Shown here in pieces: positions 8,818 to 57,497 of a DNA stretch of 64,000 nucleotides. A model generated the notes under the pieces. It was not told where the DNA came from and did no database searches. It worked only from the letters and a program-made list of their open reading frames with translations. Source of the DNA: Bacteroidota bacterium. GTDB taxonomy: Bacteria; Bacteroidota; Bacteroidia; Chitinophagales; Saprospiraceae. The stretch spans positions 248,001 to 312,000 of the forward strand of contig WGNL01000010.1 of NCBI GenBank assembly GCA_016124585.1, in the 5' to 3' direction. Position 1 is the stretch's first letter. Each line of letters begins with the position of its first letter. The translations under genes and the position numbers were made by a program.

Positions 8818-11800
8818 ATGAGAACAGGAAAGTACGCCTTGCTGGTCTTACTCTTGGCCGCCAGCCAATCCATTTTTGCCCAAACCAAATCTCCCAACCC
8901 GTGGAACTTTGTTCCAGAGACTACCTTGGCTGCCAAAAGCCAGTCCCGTCAAATTGTCCCGAAACATTACCGGACGCTCAGTATGAGCGTGTCCCAGATG
9001 AAGTCCCTGCTGGCCGATGCACCACTTTGGCACACCAACAAAGCTGCTGACAATCAAGGCGTTATCATCTCACTCCCAATGCCCGATGGCTCTTTTCAGG
9101 ATTTCCGCATCGTGGAAGCGCCCATCATGCATCCGGATTTGCAAACAAAATACCCGACCCTACGCTCCTACGCCGGGCAGGGCATTAACGACCCAACTGC
9201 CTTCTTCCGGGGGGATTTTACAACAAAAGGTTTTCACGGTATGATACGCTCCTTTGAGCATGGCACTGTGTTCATTGACCCGTATTCCATCGCCGATGTG
9301 CAGAATTACCAAGTTTACTACAAAAAGGATTTTGCCAAAGACGATCCTTGGAAATGCAGCTTTGATGAAATTGAACAGGTGAACAAGCCGAAGCCGATAG
9401 ACCCAGCAAAGGTCATGATTGGCGACTGCGTCCTACGTGACTACACACTGGCGCTGGCATGTACTGGCGAATATGCTACCTATCACGGTGGCACTACCTC
9501 TGCTGTCATGTCGGCCTTCGTGACGACCATGACCCGTGTGAACGGCGTCTTCGAGCAGGATGCCTCCATCCACATGACCCTGCACCCGAACACTGACCAG
9601 TTGATTTTCCTCAATGCAAATACTGACCCGTACACCAACACAAATGGCAGTACGATGCTTGGCCAGAACCAAACCACTTGCGATAATATAATTGGCAATG
9701 CCAATTATGACATCGGTCATGTGTTCAGCACGGGCGGAGGCGGCGTCGCTTACCTCGGTGCTGTTTGCTCCAACTCTATCAAAGCAGGTGGGGTTACTGG
9801 CCAGTCGAACCCCATTGGCGATGGCTTCGACATTGATTATGTGGCTCACGAAATGGGCCACCAATATGGCGCCAATCACACCCAAAACAACAACTGCAAC
9901 CGCAATAGCAGCACCGCAATGGAGCCCGGAAGCGCCAGTACCATCATGGGCTATGCGGGTATCTGTGCCCCTAACGTGCAAGCACATTCCGACGATTATT
10001 TCCACGCCATCAGTTTGCAGGAAATGGCGGCGGAAGTGACTAGCAATGGTTCTGGCGGTGGCAATACCTGTTCTTCCAATACGACCATCAACAGTACGCC
10101 AACGGCCAATGCTGGTGCGGATTATGTGATACCAAAGTCAACGCCTTACATTCTTACTGGCACTGGCTCTGACCCTAATGGCGGCGACGTGCTGACCTAC
10201 ACTTGGGAGCAAATGGACGCTGCCGTGGCTACCATGCCGCCTTCTGCCACCAGTACGGGAGGGCCTGCATTCCGCTCCTTCAAAGGCACGACCTCACCCA
10301 GCCGATACTTGCCCAACTTGACGGATGTAGTGAACAACGTCAGCCCAACCTGGGAGGTGCTTTCCAGTGTGGGCCGCACCCTAAACTGGCGCTTGGTCGT
10401 TCGGGACAATCACCTTGGTGGTGGTTGCGCAGCACAGGACAATATGATTGTGACGGTGAACGGCACGGCTGGCCCCTTCGTGGTCACTGCCCCAAATACG
10501 AACGTGAGCTGGGCTGCTGGCTCCACACAGACCGTGACTTGGAACGTGGCTGGTACGACAGCCTCGCCGGTTAGCTGCGCCAATGTGGACATCCTACTCT
10601 CTGTGGACGGTGGCTTCACCTATCCCTATACCTTGGCAACTGCCACGCCGAACGATGGCACGCAGTCCATTACCATTCCAAACATCGCTGCCAATACCAC
10701 GAGCCGCATCATGGTGAGGGCGAACGGCAATATTTTCTACGACATCTCCAATACAAACTTTGCCATCACGGCGGCTTCCAATGGTTTTACCCTCAATGCT
10801 ACACCAGGCAGTCAAAGTGTATGCGCTGGCGCAAATGCCGTATATGCCGTAGCGGTGGGCGTTTCCGGTAGTTTCTCTGGCAATGTGAGCCTTAGCGTGA
10901 GTGGACTTCCTGCTGGCGCAAATGGCAACTTCAGCGTGAACCCAGTCTCCGCCCCCGGCAATAGCAACTTGACCGTGACCACCGCAGGCGTTGCCGCAGG
11001 CACCTACAACCTGACCATCACAGGCACAAGCGGTTCACAGACACAGACCGCCAACATTAGCCTGACCGTACTTGCTGGTGCGCCTGGCCAAGCTGTACTT
11101 TCCAGCCCGACCAACGGTGCTACGGGTGTTTCACAAACGCCAACCCTCACTTGGGGTGCGGTTGCTGGCGCAACAAGCTATGACGTACAGGTTTCTACCG
11201 TCAGCAATTTCTCCAGCACGGTCGTGAATGCCTCGGGCGTTTCGGGTACGAGCTACGTCGTCAGCCCAGCGCTCAACGCCAACACGACCTACTACTGGCG
11301 TACCCGTGCTGTGAATTCCTGCGGCATTGGCGCTTACGCAGCGGCTTTCAGTTTCACAACAGCCAATACCTCCTGTCTCACGCAGGCGAGCACGAATGTT
11401 CCGGTTGCCATTTCAGCCAGCGGTACACCGACCGTGACTTCCACACTGACCATTGGCACGAGCGGTACCATCAGCGATGTAAACCTGTTGAACCTCGGCA
11501 TCACCCATACTTGGGTCAATGATTTGGTGGTAAAACTGAAAAGCCCTACGGGAACGGAAATCACGCTGTTCAGCCAGATTTGCAGTAGTCAGGACAATGT
11601 GCTGACCAATTTCGATGATTCGGGATTGGCGTACTCCTCCTTGCCTTGTCCACCGACCAACAACGGTACTTACCAGCCATTGAACGCCCTTTCCGCATTC
11701 AACGGCCAGGACATGGCGGGCACTTGGACACTCACCATTCAAGACGTGGCCAATCAGGATGGCGGTTCACTCAATTCTTGGAGCCTGAACATCTGCTACT

Positions 11801-13041
11801 CGGGTGGTGGAGGCAATCCACCTGTGGTCGTTTCAGTTTCAGGTAGCAATGTAAGTTGCAACGGCGGCAACAACGGCTCCGCCACTGCCACTGCTACTGG
11901 CGGTAATGGTAGCTACACTTACGCATGGAGTAACGGCGGCACTACGCAGACCATCAACGGTCTGGGCGCAGGCACTTACACTTGCACAGTAACTTCTGGT
12001 GGCAACTCCGGAACAGGCAGCGTGACCATCACTCAGCCATCGGCGGTGAGTGTGGCCGTTTCAGGCACCAATCCGACAAATGGCAACAACGGCTCAGCCT
12101 CGGCGGTGGCCTCTGGCGGAACTTCCCCATACAGCTATGCATGGAGCAACGGTGGCAATACTTCAACCATCACTGGCCTTGGTGCTGGTACTTACACCTG
12201 CACAGCTACGGATGCCAATGGTTGCACGGCTTCGAGCAGCGTTACGCTCACTTCGGGTGGCTGCACCACGCAGACCATCAACAGCAATAATTTTGAAAGT
12301 GGCTGGGGCATCTGGTCGGATGGTGGCTCCGATTGCGCAAGGGTAAATAATTCAACCTACGCCAACAGCGGCAATTACAGTATCATGCTGCGGGACAATA
12401 CCAACTCATCGGTGATGACGACCTCCAACCTGAACCTGACCAGCTACTCGGAAGTGACCATTGATTTCAGCTACATCAGCTCGGGTTTCTCGAACGGCGA
12501 GGATTTCTGGTTGCAAGCCTCTACGAATGGCGGCGGTTCATACTCTACGTTGATTGCTTGGGTAGCCGGTACTGACTTTTCCAACGGTCAGCGCAAGTTT
12601 GCGACCGTGGTCATTACGGGCAATTTTACCTCCAATACCCGCTTCCGTTTCCGCTGTGATGCGTCCACGAATTCCGATCAGGTTTATATTGACGACGTGG
12701 TCATCACAGGTTGCCAAAACTTGGCGGGGAACCAACAGGAAGAAGCTCGCCCAGAAGAGGAATCCAATGTGTCACTCCCTTCCACGTCTTCTAGCCTACT
12801 GGCCTATCCGAACCCCACCAGCAACATGCTGACCGTGGAATTCACCCAAGCAGAAGGAGCCGCCACTTTGGTGGTCTTGGATATGACGGGCAAATTGCTC
12901 CAATCACAAAAAGTGGCCTCCAACGGCACGGGTCTCCAGCAAGTACAACTTGATGTGAGCAACCTCCAGCCCGGCAGCTACCTGCTGCAAGTGCTTGATG
13001 GCAAGGAGCGTCGGTATTTGCAGTTTGTGAAGATAGAGTAG
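8818..13041 (+). CDS. T9SS-secreted reprolysin-like (M12B/metzincin) metalloprotease with P-domain and SprB repeats
   Basis: 1407 aa; signal peptide ends near residue 22 (SIFAQ). A propeptide precedes the catalytic domain. The zinc site is a full metzincin motif, H344-E345-x2-H348-x5-H354 (HEMGHQYGANH), with a likely Met-turn at STIMGYAG. Downstream are a PKD-like region (425-548), Ig-like domains (558-753), a fibronectin type III domain (755-851) and a proprotein-convertase P-domain (852-995). Then come two SprB repeats with YAWSNGG cores (1000-1145), a MAM/jelly-roll-like domain with NNFESGWG start (1149-1300) and a T9SS type A sorting tail (YPNPTSNMLTVEF ... GSYLLQVL). It is predicted to hydrolyse extracellular protein. 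A terminator follows at 13074. GC content is higher than in neighbouring cargo genes. Confidence 0.9.
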   Translation: MRTGKYALLVLLLAASQSIFAQTKSPNPWNFVPETTLAAKSQSRQIVPKHYRTLSMSVSQMKSLLADAPLWHTNKAADNQGVIISLPMPDGSFQDFRIVEAPIMHPDLQTKYPTLRSYAGQGINDPTAFFRGDFTTKGFHGMIRSFEHGTVFIDPYSIADVQNYQVYYKKDFAKDDPWKCSFDEIEQVNKPKPIDPAKVMIGDCVLRDYTLALACTGEYATYHGGTTSAVMSAFVTTMTRVNGVFEQDASIHMTLHPNTDQLIFLNANTDPYTNTNGSTMLGQNQTTCDNIIGNANYDIGHVFSTGGGGVAYLGAVCSNSIKAGGVTGQSNPIGDGFDIDYVAHEMGHQYGANHTQNNNCNRNSSTAMEPGSASTIMGYAGICAPNVQAHSDDYFHAISLQEMAAEVTSNGSGGGNTCSSNTTINSTPTANAGADYVIPKSTPYILTGTGSDPNGGDVLTYTWEQMDAAVATMPPSATSTGGPAFRSFKGTTSPSRYLPNLTDVVNNVSPTWEVLSSVGRTLNWRLVVRDNHLGGGCAAQDNMIVTVNGTAGPFVVTAPNTNVSWAAGSTQTVTWNVAGTTASPVSCANVDILLSVDGGFTYPYTLATATPNDGTQSITIPNIAANTTSRIMVRANGNIFYDISNTNFAITAASNGFTLNATPGSQSVCAGANAVYAVAVGVSGSFSGNVSLSVSGLPAGANGNFSVNPVSAPGNSNLTVTTAGVAAGTYNLTITGTSGSQTQTANISLTVLAGAPGQAVLSSPTNGATGVSQTPTLTWGAVAGATSYDVQVSTVSNFSSTVVNASGVSGTSYVVSPALNANTTYYWRTRAVNSCGIGAYAAAFSFTTANTSCLTQASTNVPVAISASGTPTVTSTLTIGTSGTISDVNLLNLGITHTWVNDLVVKLKSPTGTEITLFSQICSSQDNVLTNFDDSGLAYSSLPCPPTNNGTYQPLNALSAFNGQDMAGTWTLTIQDVANQDGGSLNSWSLNICYSGGGGNPPVVVSVSGSNVSCNGGNNGSATATATGGNGSYTYAWSNGGTTQTINGLGAGTYTCTVTSGGNSGTGSVTITQPSAVSVAVSGTNPTNGNNGSASAVASGGTSPYSYAWSNGGNTSTITGLGAGTYTCTATDANGCTASSSVTLTSGGCTTQTINSNNFESGWGIWSDGGSDCARVNNSTYANSGNYSIMLRDNTNSSVMTTSNLNLTSYSEVTIDFSYISSGFSNGEDFWLQASTNGGGSYSTLIAWVAGTDFSNGQRKFATVVITGNFTSNTRFRFRCDASTNSDQVYIDDVVITGCQNLAGNQQEEARPEEESNVSLPSTSSSLLAYPNPTSNMLTVEFTQAEGAATLVVLDMTGKLLQSQKVASNGTGLQQVQLDVSNLQPGSYLLQVLDGKERRYLQFVKIE

Positions 13042-50066: not shown

Positions 50067-50319
50067 TTGGCAGTAAAATTGTATGCTTTGTTCTATGCCG
50101 AAGGATGTTTTGAAATTATCCCAATACCGTTATTTAGGTATTTATTTGAAGCTTGGATTGAAAAAGGATTTATTTCTCTAGATTTGTACGGCTTATTTAG
50201 TTCACTGGCTTACACACCTATCAAGACTATATCCTTTCGCTATAATTAAGTTTGTTAAGTTCCACGTTTGATAACCAAACGTGTTATCCCCTTTTTGTAA
50301 ACACTTATATCTTATTAAA

Positions 50320-53300
50320 ATGAAACAATCTTTTAACCCTATTCGGGCAGCCTACCTCTGCTGTCAACGTTTGGTGTTACTATTGGTAATCTACAGTTGC
50401 ATCCTACCTGCTAATCTTTCTTCACAAACTGATATTTACCTGGCTAGGTCGACTGAAAACAAGATAGCCAAATTCAGTTCTGATGGTTCTGGTCTGAATC
50501 TATCCCTAGTAAGTGCCTCAGGTTTCGTTACTGGCGTTGCAATTGATGCTACCAACGGTAAAATTTATTTTACTCAATATACTACAGGCGCCATTGGAAT
50601 CGCTAACCTAGATGGAACCAGCTTGAACGCTAGTTTAATCATGGGGCTTCAAAAACCAATGGGCATAACCATCGACCCTGTGAATGCTAAGATTTATTGG
50701 ACAGAAGAAGGTTCCAAAAAAATCAAAAGAGCCAATTTAGATGGAACTGGTGTCGCCACTCTTGTTACTGTGACTAATGGCCAACCTTACGATGTCGCAG
50801 TTAGTCCTGCCACTAATCAACTTTTTTGGTGTTCAAAAGGATATAATCGTATAGGTGTGGTTAACCTTTCAGGAGGGGGGTACAACCCGGATTTTATCAA
50901 TTGCGGGGCTGCGACTTATGGCATATACGGACTAGGTATTGATAGAGTTGGCAATAAGGTTTTTTGGGCAAACTATGGTGCCAGTGCTATAGGAGTAGCC
51001 AATTTAGATGGCACTGAAGTCAACCCTTCTCTAATTCCCAATTGCCTTAGCCCAATAGATGTGGTGGCCGACCCAGGCACAGGTAAACTTTATTGGAGCA
51101 ATATTGGAAATGATGGCGTTGGTAGTTCAAACATTGATGGCACTGAAGTCAATCAATACTTTAAAACTGGAATTACCAGAGTGTGGGGAATTGACATGAT
51201 TTTGTCACCATGCCCCGACCAGGACCAAGATGGTGTTTGCAGTCAACTGGACAATTGCCCCAACACATTCAATCCGGACCAAGCTGATGCTGACAATGAT
51301 AGCATAGGTGATGCTTGTGACGCCGACGATGACAACGACAATGTTTTAGATATCAACGACCCCCAGCCACTAAACAATTTTGTTTGCGGTGATGCTGATA
51401 TGGATGGCTGCGACGACTGTTCAATTGCTGGTGTTGCCAGCCCCAACAACGATGGCCCCGATTTCGACTCAGACGGAATTTGTGACAATGGGGATGCCGA
51501 CGACGATAACGACGGCGTACCAGATGTTGATGACCCGGATGATGCAAATAATTTTATCTGTGGAGACTCAGACATGGATGGTTGCGATGACTGTTCCGTG
51601 GCCGGCACATTTGCGCCCAATAACGATGGCCCTGACAACGACCTAGATGGTCTGTGCGACAGCGGTGACCCTGATGACGACAACGACGGCGTACCAGATA
51701 TAGACGATAATTGTCCAAATGTTGACAACCCGGACCAAGAGGATGCCGACATGGATGGCATTGGCGATGCCTGTGAAACAGATGATGACAATGATGGTAT
51801 TCCTGATGTATCTGATAACTGCCAGTTTACGCCAAATGTCGATCAGTTAGACAATGATATGGATGGAATGGGAGATGCCTGCGATTCTGACGATGACAAT
51901 GATGGCGTTATTGACGCCGCAGATAATTGTCCATTCGCTGCCAATGCTGACCAAGCCGACAATGATATGGACGGCATCGGGGATGTTTGTGACAATGACG
52001 ACGATAACGATGGTGTACTGGATGTTGATGACAATTGCCCATTCACTGCCAATGCCGGCCAAGCCGACAATGATATGGACGGCATCGGGGATGTTTGTGA
52101 CAATGACGACGATAACGACACTGTACTAGATGTTGATGACAATTGCCCATTTACTGCCAATGCAGATCAAGCCGACAATGATATGGATGGCATGGGTGAT
52201 GTTTGCGACGATGACGATGACGATGATGGTATTTTGGACGTGACAGATAATTGCCCAACTGTTGCCAATGCAGACCAAGCCGACAATGATACGGATGGCA
52301 TGGGTGACGCTTGTGACCCAGATGATGACGGCGATGGTGTAGCTGATGGCGATGATAATTGCCCAACTGTTGCCAATGCAGACCAAGCCGACAATGACAT
52401 GGACGGTATCGGTGATGCTTGTGACAATGATGTAGATACTGATATGGATGGTTTTCAAGATGGAAATGACAACTGCCCGATGAATTTCAACCCTGGGCAA
52501 GAAGATAATGATAATGATGGGGTAGGCGATGTTTGCGACACGGACGACGACAACGATGGTGTGCCAGATGTTTCAGATAATTGCCCGCTTGTGGCCAATC
52601 CTGCTCAAGCCGACAATGACATGGATGGCCTCGGTGACATTTGTGATCCGGATGACGACAACGATGGCCTGTCGGATCAAAATGATAATTGCCCGCTTGT
52701 GGCTAATCCAGACCAAGCTGATTTTGATATGGATGGTATTGGCGATGTCTGCGATTCTGATGCTGACGGCGATGGAATTGATGATAGTATTGATAATTGT
52801 CTGGGACTTGCCAATCCTGACCAAGCTGATACAGACATGGATGGTCTTGGCAATGCTTGTGACAGCGATGATGATAATGATGGAGTGGATGACGGAGATG
52901 ACAACTGCCCAGAATCTGCGAACGCTGACCAAGCCGACAGCGATTGTGATGGCGTAGGAGATGCTTGCGACCTTTGCCCTGGCGGTGATGATAGCATTGA
53001 TTATAACAATGACGGTTTAGCTGACTGTTTCTATTTGCCTGCTACTTTCAATGAAATTTATCCCGGATGGCGTTGTGGCAACAATAACACTAAGGTTTAT
53101 ATATGTCACAATGGCAGTACGCAATGCGTAGGCTTTAATGCCATCAATAACTTTGACTACATTGGGCCATGTGGCAATGCAACTTGTTTCCAATCTCCTG
53201 GCGGCAATCCTTCCAGTCAATTGGGTTGGTTAGATTTGCCTACTGAAAGTAAGGAAGGAATCAGGTTTGAATTGATGCCAAACCCAGCTGGTGAATCTGT

Positions 53301-53511
53301 CAATATACAATTCAGCGGATTAAGAGGCGTCATTGCTGATCTTGTCGTAGCAGATAACCTTGGCAGGGTTGTATTCCAACAGGAATTGGAAGATGGGCAG
53401 ACCAACCTAGACCTTGATTTGAGCACAAGCAATTGGCATACTGGGCTGTACACCGTAATGATAAAATCAGGTGGTGAACGTGCCTTCCAACGGCTCATGA
53501 TTCAGCAATAA
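50320..53511 (+). CDS. T9SS-sorted protein with YWTD-like propeller and thrombospondin type 3 calcium repeats
   Basis: 1063 aa from the ATG at 50320, which opens the signal peptide (ending NLSSQ). Residues ~36-294 are a six-bladed LDL-receptor YWTD-like propeller (KIYFTQYTTGAIGIANLDGT; KIYWTEEGSKKIKRANLDGT). Residues ~296-890 are thrombospondin type 3 repeats: 13 DNC motifs with D-x-D-x-DG spacing, typically 36 aa each and able to bind many calcium ions. A short Cys-containing domain precedes the T9SS tail (ELMPNPAGESVNIQF ... GLYTVMIKSGG). Several repeats are nearly identical in DNA. Likely a calcium-stabilised surface stalk or adhesin. Followed by a 24-bp bidirectional terminator. Confidence 0.9.
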   Translation: MKQSFNPIRAAYLCCQRLVLLLVIYSCILPANLSSQTDIYLARSTENKIAKFSSDGSGLNLSLVSASGFVTGVAIDATNGKIYFTQYTTGAIGIANLDGTSLNASLIMGLQKPMGITIDPVNAKIYWTEEGSKKIKRANLDGTGVATLVTVTNGQPYDVAVSPATNQLFWCSKGYNRIGVVNLSGGGYNPDFINCGAATYGIYGLGIDRVGNKVFWANYGASAIGVANLDGTEVNPSLIPNCLSPIDVVADPGTGKLYWSNIGNDGVGSSNIDGTEVNQYFKTGITRVWGIDMILSPCPDQDQDGVCSQLDNCPNTFNPDQADADNDSIGDACDADDDNDNVLDINDPQPLNNFVCGDADMDGCDDCSIAGVASPNNDGPDFDSDGICDNGDADDDNDGVPDVDDPDDANNFICGDSDMDGCDDCSVAGTFAPNNDGPDNDLDGLCDSGDPDDDNDGVPDIDDNCPNVDNPDQEDADMDGIGDACETDDDNDGIPDVSDNCQFTPNVDQLDNDMDGMGDACDSDDDNDGVIDAADNCPFAANADQADNDMDGIGDVCDNDDDNDGVLDVDDNCPFTANAGQADNDMDGIGDVCDNDDDNDTVLDVDDNCPFTANADQADNDMDGMGDVCDDDDDDDGILDVTDNCPTVANADQADNDTDGMGDACDPDDDGDGVADGDDNCPTVANADQADNDMDGIGDACDNDVDTDMDGFQDGNDNCPMNFNPGQEDNDNDGVGDVCDTDDDNDGVPDVSDNCPLVANPAQADNDMDGLGDICDPDDDNDGLSDQNDNCPLVANPDQADFDMDGIGDVCDSDADGDGIDDSIDNCLGLANPDQADTDMDGLGNACDSDDDNDGVDDGDDNCPESANADQADSDCDGVGDACDLCPGGDDSIDYNNDGLADCFYLPATFNEIYPGWRCGNNNTKVYICHNGSTQCVGFNAINNFDYIGPCGNATCFQSPGGNPSSQLGWLDLPTESKEGIRFELMPNPAGESVNIQFSGLRGVIADLVVADNLGRVVFQQELEDGQTNLDLDLSTSNWHTGLYTVMIKSGGERAFQRLMIQQ

Positions 53512-53530
53512 TAGCTGAATAAGTAGCCGA

Positions 53531-53587
53531 TTGGGCAAAAGAAAAGCGGTTTGGGCATAATGTCCAAACCGCTTTTCTTTTGCCCAA
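53531..53587. terminator. bidirectional terminator with 24-bp perfect arms
   Basis: Arms 53531-53554 and 53564-53587 are exact reverse complements around a 9-nt loop, each containing aaaagaaaagcgg or its complement, so a T-rich run follows on either strand. It sits between two convergent stop codons (53511 and 53598). Confidence 0.88.
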
Positions 53588-53597
53588 TCTTGAAACC

Positions 53598-54704
53598 TTA
53601 ATCTACCCAATCCGCTACGAATACATTCGTGTCATGTCTACCGCCGTTGTTGCGGTTGCTGGAGAAAGCTACTTTTTTACCATCTGGTGAAAACATAATG
53701 AATGAATCAAAGCCAGTATCAAAAGTGATTTGCTCAAGTCCTGTGCCGTCCAAGTTCACAGCAAACACATTGAACAAGCGACCACTCTTACTGTGGTGAT
53801 TGGTGGAAAAAAGGATTTTCTTGCCGCTTGGGTCCATGAAAGGTGCCCAATTCGCACCGCCAAGATGTGTGATTTGCTTTAAGTCCGAACCGTCCACATT
53901 GCAGGTGAAAATCTCAAGTGCAGTGGGTTGTACCAATCCCTGCGCCAGCAGTTCTTTGTAGGTTTTCACTTCCTCGTCTGTTTTCGGACGGCTAGCCCGG
54001 AAAACCAAACGCTTGTTGTCTGGCGTAAAAAAAGCGCCACCATCGTAACCCAATCCATTGGTCACTTGGCGCTGGTCAGAGCCGTCAATGTTCATCGTCC
54101 AAAGTTCCAAATCGCCTGAGCGGGTGCTGGTAAAAACGATTTTTTTGCCGTCCGGCGAAACAGTTCCTTCTGCGTCATAACCGGGCGAGTTGGTCAGTTT
54201 TTTAACAATATTCCCTTTCAAATCAGCTACATAAATATCGAATTCTTTGTGAACTGACCAGACATATTTGCCCCCAACACTACGTGGCGACTCAGGACAG
54301 TTGTCGCCGCTCTCGTGCGTGCTAGCAAAGAGAATATGCTTGTTGTCTGGCATGAAATACGAGCAAGTCGTTTTCCCTTTCCCAGTACTGATAAGCTGTG
54401 GTTTTTGGCCGCCATTCGTGCCTGTGCTGATTGGCATGTAGAAAATCTGGTCACAGGCAGTTCCCCATTTTTCATTGGTTGCTTGAAAAGTGAGGTACTT
54501 GCTGTCGAAACTCCAGTAGGCTTCTGCGTTGTCGCCAGCAAATGTCAATTGCTTGACATTGCGGAAGTGGTTTTCACCAGTCAAACGGAGGGTGTCCGCT
54601 GCCTGATTGTAATTGGTAAGTGCTTGGTTTCCAGCTTTTTTTGATGAGTCGCAAGCCAAAGCCATCATGGCAAATGACAGGGCGAGGATGGTGTATTTTG
54701 TCAT
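53598..54704 (-). CDS. TolB-like PD40 beta-propeller lipoprotein
   Basis: 368 aa with a lipobox at Cys18 (MALAC). The rest is a chain of PD40/TolB blades: NAEAYWSFDSKYLTFQA, GTVSPDGKKIVFTSTRSGDLELWTM, PFMDPSGKKILFSTNH and IMFSPDGKKVAFSSNRNNGG, the last three with the SPDGK signature. Such proteins bind partners or peptides in the periplasm. This one carries no protease or other enzymatic domain. A -7 element TATCTTTG lies 14 nt upstream. Confidence 0.85.
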   Translation of the reverse strand: MTKYTILALSFAMMALACDSSKKAGNQALTNYNQAADTLRLTGENHFRNVKQLTFAGDNAEAYWSFDSKYLTFQATNEKWGTACDQIFYMPISTGTNGGQKPQLISTGKGKTTCSYFMPDNKHILFASTHESGDNCPESPRSVGGKYVWSVHKEFDIYVADLKGNIVKKLTNSPGYDAEGTVSPDGKKIVFTSTRSGDLELWTMNIDGSDQRQVTNGLGYDGGAFFTPDNKRLVFRASRPKTDEEVKTYKELLAQGLVQPTALEIFTCNVDGSDLKQITHLGGANWAPFMDPSGKKILFSTNHHSKSGRLFNVFAVNLDGTGLEQITFDTGFDSFIMFSPDGKKVAFSSNRNNGGRHDTNVFVADWVD

Positions 54705-54790: not shown

Positions 54791-55276
54791 CTAATTACTT
54801 GCCCTTCGTTCCATCAGCACATTGTCATGCCATGTGCCGTCCCGTTGTGCAATTCGTTCCCGAATGCCTACTACCCGAAATCCTGCCTGCTCGTGAAGTG
54901 CGATACTTGCCTTGTTTTGGGCAAAAATGACTGCCTGCAACGTCCAAAACCCCTGCTTCTCAGCATTGGAAATTAGTTGCTTGAGCAAGGTTTGGCCGAT
55001 GCCTTTTCCCCTGCTTTTTTCACCAATGTAAATCGCCACCTCGCCCACACCTCGGTAAACTTCCCGTTTTGAATAAGGTGTGAGCGCTGCCCAGCCAACT
55101 ACCTCACCATCAACAGTTGCCACCAAACGGCAAATAGATAGGTATTTTTCATCCCATGCTTCCCAGTCAATGGATTTTGTTTCAAAAGTGGCAATACCTG
55201 TGGCCAAGCCTTCTTCGTAAATACGGCGGACAGCTGGGTAGTGTGCTTCCAGTAATGGCTCAATTACCAAATTCAT
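54791..55276 (-). CDS. GNAT N-acetyltransferase (phosphinothricin acetyltransferase-like)
   Basis: 161 aa. GNAT motif A is VAIYIGEKSRGKGIGQTLL; the N-terminal IYEEGLATGIATFETK and the C-terminal HEQAGFRVVGIRERIAQRDGTWHDNVLMER are typical of the Pat/ArsN1-like group. The start at 55276 overlaps the upstream stop as ATGA, implying coupled translation with the DUF6428-like gene. Related acetyltransferases (ArsN) occur in arsenic clusters, where they detoxify the arsenical arsinothricin. That role here is an inference from position. Confidence 0.82.
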   Translation of the reverse strand: MNLVIEPLLEAHYPAVRRIYEEGLATGIATFETKSIDWEAWDEKYLSICRLVATVDGEVVGWAALTPYSKREVYRGVGEVAIYIGEKSRGKGIGQTLLKQLISNAEKQGFWTLQAVIFAQNKASIALHEQAGFRVVGIRERIAQRDGTWHDNVLMERRASN

Positions 55277-55731
55277 GAGCAGCAACCGACTGTTGAACAG
55301 CCTGCCAACTCCAATTCCAGCTTGGGCTTGCAGACGGTAGGTGGTACAAACATTTTCACAACCAATTGACTTTCTGTGATTTCAATATCCGATGGGCTGT
55401 AGTTGGAAGTGGGGAGGTACTCGTTTCCCCACTCAAAAAAGATGTCGGCATCTCCTCGCATCGGCTTCATTTTGCCCACAATGTCGAAGATTTTTAGAGC
55501 TTTTTCAGTGAGCATGTGGCGCTCCACCTGCTCGTCACCGGAAACCCAGAGCTGCACTACTGTTTGAAAATACTCGCTTGGCCTGCCCCCACAGTCCACT
55601 GCTTCGATGTGCATATTTTTCACTTCCGTAATGTGATAAGCCATTGGCACGAAGAAGCCTTGGCGGTATTCAAAAACGAGTTCCTTGCTGGGATTTTCCC
55701 GCAGTGTTTGGAGAAATTGATTGGTTGTCAT
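55273..55731 (-). CDS. DUF6428-like protein of the arsenic-type cluster
   Basis: 152 aa from the Met at 55731 (TNQFLQTLRENPSKELVFEY). FVPMAYHITEVKNMHIEAVDCGG is the feature I associate with DUF6428, a family often seen beside arsR. The C-terminus is Cys-rich (AGCSTVGCCS), which could bind a soft metal or arsenite. No signal peptide. Ends in a 4-nt ATGA overlap with the GNAT gene. It follows a 26-aa Cys-rich peptide gene on the same strand. Function not established. Confidence 0.75.
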   Translation of the reverse strand: MTTNQFLQTLRENPSKELVFEYRQGFFVPMAYHITEVKNMHIEAVDCGGRPSEYFQTVVQLWVSGDEQVERHMLTEKALKIFDIVGKMKPMRGDADIFFEWGNEYLPTSNYSPSDIEITESQLVVKMFVPPTVCKPKLELELAGCSTVGCCS

Positions 55732-55809
55732 GTTGAAAATTGGTAAGTTATTACTGAAAAAGGATTTGAAAATGGTGGCAACTTGGAAAGCAGTTGCCAC
55801 CAATATCTT

Positions 55810-55890
55810 TTAGCAGCAGCCGTTTCCACAGCCGGTGCCACAGCAGCCACCTTCGGTGGTGCTTGTTTGGAATGAAATTGAATTTCGCAT
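55810..55890 (-). CDS. 26-aa cysteine-rich micropeptide between arsR and the DUF6428-like gene
   Basis: A complete frame (ATG at 55888-55890, TAA at 55810-55812) whose last 13 residues are GGCCGTGCGNGCC, five Cys in thirteen positions. The N-terminal half is polar (MRNSISFQTSTTE). It sits in the leader of the DUF6428-like gene, 38 nt downstream of the conserved ArsR-type operator at 55929. Its CC-x3-C-x3-CC pattern echoes the Cys-rich C-termini of the DUF6428-like protein and ArsR. A small thiol-rich metal-binding or leader peptide is plausible. Coding status is inferred from the intact frame and composition, with no obvious ribosome binding site. Confidence 0.55.
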   Translation of the reverse strand: MRNSISFQTSTTEGGCCGTGCGNGCC

Positions 55891-55928
55891 AGCACAAATA
55901 GTTTAAAAGTGAAAAAATACGCTTTCTA

Positions 55929-55944
55929 TCGCAATATTACGATG
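55929..55944. promoter_or_regulatory. ArsR-type operator, copy 1
   Basis: ATCGCAATATTACGAT, a near-perfect palindrome (ATCG-Y-AATATT-R-CGAT), identical to copy 2 at 56294. It lies between the arsR stop and the micropeptide, where it would control the downstream genes separately from arsR. Confidence 0.75.
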
Positions 55945-56293: not shown

Positions 56294-56309
56294 ATCGCAA
56301 TATTACGAT
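56294..56309. promoter_or_regulatory. ArsR-type operator, copy 2
   Basis: ATCGCAATATTACGAT, identical to the 16 nt at 55929-55944, placed 18 nt upstream of the arsR start. On the minus strand it contains TAATATTG, one base from the -7 consensus, so bound repressor would block the promoter. Confidence 0.8.
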
Positions 56310-56429: not shown

Positions 56430-57497
56430 ATGCTCACGACGACATTACCCGACACGACCACCATGTACCAAGCCCTGTTGAACAAGGATACCAGTTTTGA
56501 AGGTATTTTTTTTGCGGGTATCAAGACCACTGGCATTTTTTGCAGGCCCAGTTGCACTGCCAGAAAACCCAAGCCTGAGAACGTAGAGTACTACGCCAAT
56601 GCGAGTGAAGCCATCCGCCACGGCTATCGGCCCTGCAAGGTTTGCCACCCGATGGAACTGAAGGACGCAACCCCTGATTGGCTCGAACCGCTGCTCAAAG
56701 AAATTGGCGCTGACCCTTCTATCCGGTTGCGCAGCAGTGACCTTCGGGAACGTGGACTGCAGCCAGAGCGAGTAAGCCGTTGGTTCAAAAAAACACACGG
56801 CATCACCTTTCAGGCCTATTTGAGAATGCTCCGCATTAACCAGGCTTTTGGACAAATCAGGCATGGTGAGCGGGTGACGGATACGGCTTTCAGCAACGGC
56901 TATGAATCGCTTAGTGGCTTTGCTGATTCTTTCAAAAAAACTACAGGTTTTGCGCCAGCAAAAAGTACTAATAAAAAAATCATCACAGTGACTAGGCTGC
57001 TGACGCCCCTCGGCCCGATGATGGCTGGTGCCACAGACCACGGCATCTGCCTACTTGAATTTACAGACCGTAGGATGCTGGAAACACAAATCAGCCGTTT
57101 GAAAAAATACTTGAAAGCTGAGATAGTGTCTGGCGAGCATTCATTTTTTTCGATGCTAAACGAGCAACTGAACGATTATTTCGATGGAAAAAGAAAGGAT
57201 TTTGGATTGCCGCTGGACTTGACGGGGACAGCTTTTCAGCAACAAGTTTGGACAGAATTATTACAAATTCCATATGGCAAAACACGTTCGTACAAAGAGC
57301 AGGCGACCAATATTGGGAACCCTAAAGCGGTTCGGGCAGTGGCAAGGGCAAATGGCGACAACCGAATTTCTATCATCATTCCTTGCCATCGGGTCATTGG
57401 TTCTGACGGTGAGTTGACAGGTTACGGAGGTGGGCTTTGGCGGAAAAAATGGCTGCTCGAACATGAACAGAATTCAAAATTGAAAGTGGATAATTGA
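56430..57497 (+). CDS. ada: Ada-type methylated-DNA repair protein and transcriptional activator
   Basis: 355 aa. N-terminal Ada zinc domain with the four cysteines C38, C42, C69 and C72 (GIFCRPSC ... RPCKVC), one of which accepts methyl from phosphotriesters. An AraC-type HTH follows (RVSRWFKKTHGITFQAYLRML ends in AFSNGYES-GFADSFKK), then an O6-alkylguanine methyltransferase domain with the acceptor C319 in IIPCHRVIGS. All three modules are intact, so it should act as both repair enzyme and methylation-activated regulator. The start was chosen by the promoter spacing. Ends inside a phrase-repeat hairpin. Confidence 0.93.
   Translation: MLTTTLPDTTTMYQALLNKDTSFEGIFFAGIKTTGIFCRPSCTARKPKPENVEYYANASEAIRHGYRPCKVCHPMELKDATPDWLEPLLKEIGADPSIRLRSSDLRERGLQPERVSRWFKKTHGITFQAYLRMLRINQAFGQIRHGERVTDTAFSNGYESLSGFADSFKKTTGFAPAKSTNKKIITVTRLLTPLGPMMAGATDHGICLLEFTDRRMLETQISRLKKYLKAEIVSGEHSFFSMLNEQLNDYFDGKRKDFGLPLDLTGTAFQQQVWTELLQIPYGKTRSYKEQATNIGNPKAVRAVARANGDNRISIIIPCHRVIGSDGELTGYGGGLWRKKWLLEHEQNSKLKVDN

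Follow-up and report, generated by a model that had tools for sequence, protein, structure and literature searches.

Gene order at the locus and the micropeptide frame

The window, meaning the whole 64-kb stretch of DNA that was analysed, contains an arsenic-type gene cluster in which a 26-codon open reading frame lies between arsR and a DUF6428 gene (Table 1). The frame is complete, Cys-rich and unannotated, as the preliminary description had stated, and the family matches of its neighbours confirmed the nature of the cluster. The arsR product matched PF01022 (E 1.3e-11) and NF033788 (66.6 bits, cut-off 55), and its matches among PDB sequences were chiefly ArsR/SmtB-type regulators. The downstream gene, described beforehand as DUF6428-like and Cys-tailed, proved to be both, with a PF20001 score of 100 bits (cut-off 28.7), and the nearest model of the acetyltransferase behind it was ArsN1 NF040503, at 142 bits and thus under the cut-off of 170.

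Table 1. Features of the locus in the window and the two related peptides found elsewhere
Feature	Position	Strand	Remarks
Operator 1, 16-bp palindrome ATCGTAATATTGCGAT, 5' of arsR	56309..56294	-	Exact match
arsR, 103 aa	55964..56275	-	PF01022, NF033788; contains CVCGD and KVCYC, ends SRCC
Operator 2, identical to operator 1	55928..55943	-	37 nt 5' of the peptide ATG
Cys-rich micropeptide MRNSISFQTSTTEGGCCGTGCGNGCC, 26 aa	55890..55810	-	ORF, ATG to TAA, between arsR and DUF6428
11-bp hairpin, terminator- or attenuator-like	55773..55802	-	Inverted repeat, 7 nt past the peptide stop
DUF6428 protein, 152 aa, ends CSTVGCCS	55273..55731	-	PF20001; AlphaFold2 model, pLDDT 93
GNAT acetyltransferase, ArsN1-like	54791..55285	-	An ATG overlaps the DUF6428 stop (ATGA)
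Related peptide MKNVLSFLSSFCCSGGDCCETGCGGGCC	L074:7763-7849		Saprospiraceae MAG; ends GGDCCETGCGGGCC-stop
Related peptide MKNVLFVSFSGGDCCETGCGGGCC	L076:3742-3816		Saprospiraceae MAG; ends GGDCCETGCGGGCC-stop

An Ada-type alkylation-response gene (56430-57497, plus strand) is divergent from arsR, and operator 1 lies within their common upstream region. On the other side of the cluster, a near-perfect long hairpin (53528-53590; -53 kcal/mol for the stretch) stands between the facing ORFs 50281-53511 (plus strand) and 53598-54704 (minus strand); both of its strands drew Rfam microRNA matches below the threshold, and it is probably a two-way terminator. The Rfam search of the window (E up to 1) yielded 15 matches, none of which reached its gathering score or lay at the micropeptide ORF.

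The final 13 residues of the micropeptide, GGCCGTGCGNGCC, hold five Cys, in agreement with the number of thiols first reported for them. Among the 987 short ORFs of the window (15-60 aa, with ATG, GTG or TTG starts), the micropeptide was the only one with at least five Cys in its last 13 residues. In a second Cys-dense short ORF (9794-9919), seven of 13 residues are Cys, but these lie near the start of the frame; this ORF begins with TTG and is antisense to a long ORF (8818-13041). In a first-order Markov simulation of 100 sequences of 64 kb, 18 of 145,821 short ORFs reached the same Cys content, or about 0.18 per window; the composition is therefore only mildly unlikely, and rarity alone is a weak argument. 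The surroundings of the frame, namely the operator, the hairpin and the shared ending, make a stronger case than its composition that it did not arise by chance. The micropeptide had no match in Pfam and NCBIfam (E up to 1) or among PDB sequences; these profile searches included the ArsD domain and the metallothionein profile, for which so short a query is a weak test. No promoter or ribosome-binding site was identified for it, the sigma-70 scan using a model that does not cover Bacteroidota promoters.

With up to two mismatches allowed, the palindrome occurs at exactly two places in the 64 kb, the two operators of Table 1, each of which matches on both strands, whereas 0.02 matches are expected by chance. 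Both operators lie within a 20-nt direct repeat (95%). An ArsR-type operator had been proposed ahead of the micropeptide; the exact copy of the arsR operator just upstream supports this, and by its sequence the frame has the appearance of an ArsR-regulated gene. In seven relatives (L012-L018), the second operator stands right before the DUF6428 gene, in L012 with one extra core mismatch (intergenic sequence), and in L018 no arsR-side copy was found at up to one mismatch. Since DUF6428 directly occupies the slot after operator 2 in these relatives, the micropeptide appears to be wedged into it. One operator was found in L021, just past arsR and distant from DUF6428, and none at up to one mismatch in L019, L020, L022 and L023.

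The hairpin 3' of the micropeptide has a folding energy of -21.4 kcal/mol (z -5.7), and none of 200 shuffles was as stable. The T run behind it is only four long, and in the terminator scan the hairpin appeared on the opposite strand only. A hairpin that limits read-through is documented for the ars1 operon of Bacillus sp. CDB3, where the hairpin between arsC and arsD reduces full-operon expression (PMC4562236); for the hairpin in the window, such a role is proposed.

Distribution of the micropeptide and its relatives behind SigZ

With the DUF6428 protein of the window as query, matches were obtained in 110 of 396 order genomes, 30 places being given as loci, and a PF20001 search of 40 relatives contributed 10 further loci, one of which was the window's own. 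The comparison set comprised 39 DUF6428 loci (the window and 38 others; 129,759 bases), 34 of which have an ArsR-like ORF. In the closer subfamily (L012-L023, 32-59% identity), the order arsR-DUF6428 is mostly kept. Such a peptide was present between arsR and DUF6428 in none of the 38 other loci. Lack of conservation in related arsR loci had been named in advance as the observation that would refute the initial interpretation, and it is what was found; the micropeptide is thus not a conserved member of arsR-DUF6428 loci, and that interpretation survives solely because related peptides occur in a different arsenic context. A short ORF with at least five Cys in its last 13 residues was seen in two of the 39 loci, the window and L034, and short ORFs with four Cys in these residues in three others. 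The L034 frame, which ends CCCCCSDW, was dropped because a 170-codon ORF upstream of arsR contains it in another reading frame and it is not located between arsR and DUF6428.

When 398 family genomes were searched with the single 26-residue sequence, 62 had matches at E up to 10, and apart from the window's own match every E value exceeded 0.04. Of the 30 places taken from this search, 29 were not the window's own, and neither the ArsR nor the DUF6428 motif looked for stood in any of the 29. These negatives weigh little, because genome G647, later found by profile, was missed. The plasmid collection gave no match to the micropeptide.

A degenerate codon pattern, CC-x2-GCG-x-GCC, was then scanned over 84,980 species genomes, with one genome per species. 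The pattern was found at 30 loci, in two of which (L074 and L076) the motif is at the end of its frame (32 and 65 codons between stops); the other 28 were dropped, the motif being internal to the frame, and in both IMG/VR loci obtained with the pattern it was likewise internal, the frames being 216 and 43 codons long. The L074 and L076 peptides are 58 and 54% identical to the window peptide, figures that apply to very short and partly pattern-selected sequences. In all three, CC-x2-GCG-x-GCC ends a short ORF behind an arsenic-type regulator. Because the search pattern dictated the Cys/Gly spacing, homology and convergence are both possible for the window and MAG peptides; the stop and the genomic context were left free by the pattern. 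Over the last 16 codons, including the stop, L074 and L076 have three base differences, all synonymous and in third positions, and their similarity decays immediately past the stop. These three synonymous changes may be taken as modest evidence of selection. The two MAGs are close relatives, with SigZ proteins 90% identical, and therefore count as one independent case.

Genome G647, of the window's family, contains the same stretch as L076 (2,266 identical bases), so the family includes at least that MAG. When a profile of the three peptides was run against the 398 family genomes, 87 had matches at E up to 1, and only G000 (the window's genome) and G647, both of which supplied rows of the profile, were below 0.003. 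The next match (E 0.0035) was a 139-codon frame opposite a longer ORF and was unconvincing. Only G000 was found in 358 order genomes at E up to 0.01. As the profile gave no further convincing match, the micropeptide type appears to be rare and patchy.

The L074 and L076 peptides start about 80 nt past a gene for a SigZ-type sigma factor; the L074 protein scored 172.3 bits with TIGR02959 (cut-off 168.65) and 187.4 with NF007215, below the cut-off of 212. SigZ relatives (E up to 1e-15 to the L074 protein) were found in 64 of the 398 family genomes, with none at that level in the window's own genome. At 30 SigZ loci, the first downstream gene was arsM, called by motif, in 14 cases (the first 110 residues of one copy scored 134 bits with NF008823), a small Cys-rich ORF, mostly for a signal-like peptide, in eight and neither in eight; the Cys-rich cases include the L076 micropeptide, whose contig ends soon after, and one of the "neither" cases is likewise near a contig end. 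Since SigZ often precedes arsM, both peptide sites are behind a regulator tied to arsenic-type genes, and SigZ may regulate arsenic genes in Saprospiraceae. All 30 SigZ proteins carry a Cys in their last 14 residues, and 26 of them carry two or more. The over-cut-off arsM of both MAG genomes lies on another contig, behind arsR. A literature search found no paper on SigZ together with arsM, nor on SigZ with arsenite and Bacteroidetes.

Cysteine-pair tails and the DUF6428 protein

Among the 65 mechanically called ATG ORFs of at least 100 aa in the window, only arsR and the DUF6428 gene encode CC within three residues of the end. A CC or CCS ending is thus shared by three successive genes, arsR, the micropeptide and DUF6428, and by no other long ORF of the window. 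The tails were compared in motif-picked rows (L001-L040, L159 and L160), with two arsR-arsM loci counted twice. Of the 38 ArsR rows, 36 have CC within three residues of the end; for DUF6428, 33 of 34 rows have it within two residues, and 22 end as C-x-P-G-x(1-2)-CC. The ArsM proteins of G657 and G658 end ACCAPGSGCC, and two of the other 12 ArsM rows have a Cys tail while 10 do not. The second regulator-like ORF of L020 (774-1490), directly 5' of arsR on the same strand, also ends in CC.

The micropeptide tail looks like a detached version of the ArsR, DUF6428 and ArsM tails. It shares C-terminal Cys pairs and Gly-rich spacing (C.PG.GCC in those tails, GCG.GCC in the micropeptide) with the tails of Bacteroidota DUF6428 (PF20001), ArsR and some ArsM (NF008823), which are found in the same operons. 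Those tails belong to larger proteins, whereas the micropeptide is a free peptide of 26 aa with a fifth, middle Cys and without Pro. Possibly, the cysteine-pair C-termini are one exchangeable tail used across ArsR, DUF6428 and some ArsM. A literature search for such C-terminal Cys tails found none.

No paper on DUF6428 was found either. Its structure model is confident (pLDDT in Table 1); Foldseek found nothing similar to it with E limited to 0.001, and a sequence search of the PDB gave no match with E limited to 1. The best VIA-align hit, glutamine synthetase, had a Z of 3.6 and an rmsd of 3.4 over 75 residues, and no function was drawn from it. Columns invariant in 19 sequences include H33, T35, E36, D46, C47, G48, E100 and C134.

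Possible role of the micropeptide and alternative explanations

The proposal that the Cys peptide is linked to arsenic held with respect to the arsenic-type context, the operator, the DUF6428-like tail and the two MAG relatives behind SigZ, and failed with respect to conservation between arsR and DUF6428. On balance, and without much confidence to spare, we favour the frame being a real micro-gene whose product, made under ArsR control, would be a peptide that binds soft metal(loid)s, in effect the tail of its neighbours as a separate molecule. ArsR bound to operator 2 would repress the gene, and binding of As(III) by ArsR would lift the repression. With the strong hairpin past the stop, a short message would be favoured over transcription on into DUF6428-GNAT, and the peptide would accordingly be produced in excess. 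Its CC..GCG.GCC tail could chelate As(III) through three thiols, the most likely ligand being arsenite or antimonite. The micropeptide would then buffer As(III) or transfer it to the CC endings of the ArsR and DUF6428 proteins, acting as a detached, diffusible form of the cysteine-pair tail at its neighbours' C-termini.

The two pumps searched for in the window's own genome, ACR3 and ArsB, gave no match, and the genome has no ArsM above the cut-off, with nine weaker methyltransferase matches and two ArsC/Spx-family matches. Sequestration of As(III) would make sense in a genome of this kind, which has neither an ACR3/ArsB match nor an over-cut-off ArsM. A more specific proposal, which we regard as doubtful, is that Saprospiraceae and related Bacteroidota share an exchangeable tail among ArsR, DUF6428 and some ArsM, that this tail has been freed in a few lineages as a micro-gene under ArsR or SigZ, and that the diffusible peptide carries As(III) from one tailed protein to another where no ACR3/ArsB arsenite pump is recognised in the genome.

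The micro-gene reading has to be weighed against a meaningless frame in a widened intergenic stretch, possibly a decayed or duplicated DUF6428 or ArsM tail with a start codon. Such a chance or relict frame is compatible with the rate of about 0.18 ORFs per 64 kb expected from composition, with the lack of the peptide at the other 38 DUF6428 loci and with the likeness of its tail to neighbouring tails such as GCCKPGGGCC and ACCAPGSGCC. However, the Cys-rich tail reaches exactly to the stop, with an intact operator above and the hairpin right behind, and a similar free-standing peptide with synonymous divergence occurs in a second arsenic-type context; we consider a chance or relict origin unlikely. 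The preliminary description had also suggested a peptide modified after translation. The short length, the Cys/Gly-rich C-terminal core and the Ser/Thr-rich front would suit the precursor of a ribosomally synthesised and post-translationally modified peptide (RiPP), but no maturase was found among the four neighbours scanned (ArsR, DUF6428, GNAT and Ada), which leaves this suggestion unsupported. Moreover, no long same-strand ORF lies in the approximately 720 bases past the L074 peptide and the micropeptide matched no NCBIfam model, and a precursor of this type is highly improbable.

The Cys codon cluster and the hairpin make a leader-peptide attenuator a serious rival, one in which the Cys codons would matter and not the product. 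When arsenite depletes free cysteine or charged tRNA-Cys, the ribosome would slow on the final Cys codon or on the stop and cover the 5' arm of the hairpin, and with the hairpin opened by the stalled ribosome, RNA polymerase would read into DUF6428-GNAT. Indeed, five Cys codons end the short ORF, a strong hairpin follows 7 nt on and structural genes come next, and a modelled ribosome placed on codon 26 or on the stop lowered the mean pairing probability of the hairpin from 0.99 to 0.81 or 0.54, respectively. There are precedents: mycobacterial short ORFs with Cys codons are described as cysteine-responsive attenuators (as cited in PMC9031893), and the arsC-arsD hairpin mentioned above lowers full-operon expression in Bacillus sp. 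CDB3 ars1 (PMC4562236). The mycobacterial attenuators share with the window a Cys-codon-rich short ORF ahead of structural genes, but they have contiguous Cys codons and leaderless mRNA (as cited in PMC9031893), whereas the window has spaced Cys, a terminator-like hairpin and no alternative antiterminator fold. Pairing of the hairpin also stayed at 0.98-0.99 at all modelled ribosome positions up to codon 25. After the L074 and L076 peptide stops, folding was no better than in shuffles (z -1.2 and -1.3; L076 is truncated by the contig end), and the non-Cys residues of the L074/L076 tail are kept as well. Taken together, an attenuator seems less likely still than a chance or relict frame, while being far from negligible.

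Read as a metal-binding product, the micropeptide would plausibly be a new, very small and rare member of the Cys-rich metal-binding kind. ArsD is a small arsenite metallochaperone of ars operons, and its vicinal Cys pairs are proposed to pass on As(III). The micropeptide resembles ArsD in being a small product of an ars-type operon with vicinal Cys pairs; it differs in being much smaller, in having no ArsD domain match and in belonging to a genome without an ACR3/ArsB pump match as recipient. Provided that it is translated, the micropeptide would be a metalloid-handling product of very small size, of a kind that standard annotation tends to miss, and would offer a minimal one-gene As(III)-site sequence, CC..GCG.GCC. 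The finding also points to the cysteine-pair tail that several arsenic proteins share and to a possible role of SigZ in regulating arsenic genes, and the tail pattern may be a more useful lead than the micropeptide.

The micropeptide can further be compared with bacterial metallothioneins and with the Cys-rich peptides found behind SigZ (L105, L109, L115 and L130), all of them small, rich in Cys pairs and beside the regulator of an arsenic-type locus. The post-SigZ peptides are longer and, as judged by eye, have a hydrophobic signal-like start, whereas the window peptide has no such stretch. In the L074 genome, a second Cys-rich peptide, exported or signal-like, follows (L167:966-1130). Planctomycetaceae frames (L080:7374-7541, L099, L079 and L095) carry CC-D/G-x-GCGNG units, either single or repeated and in some cases in tandem, that are close to the micropeptide motif.
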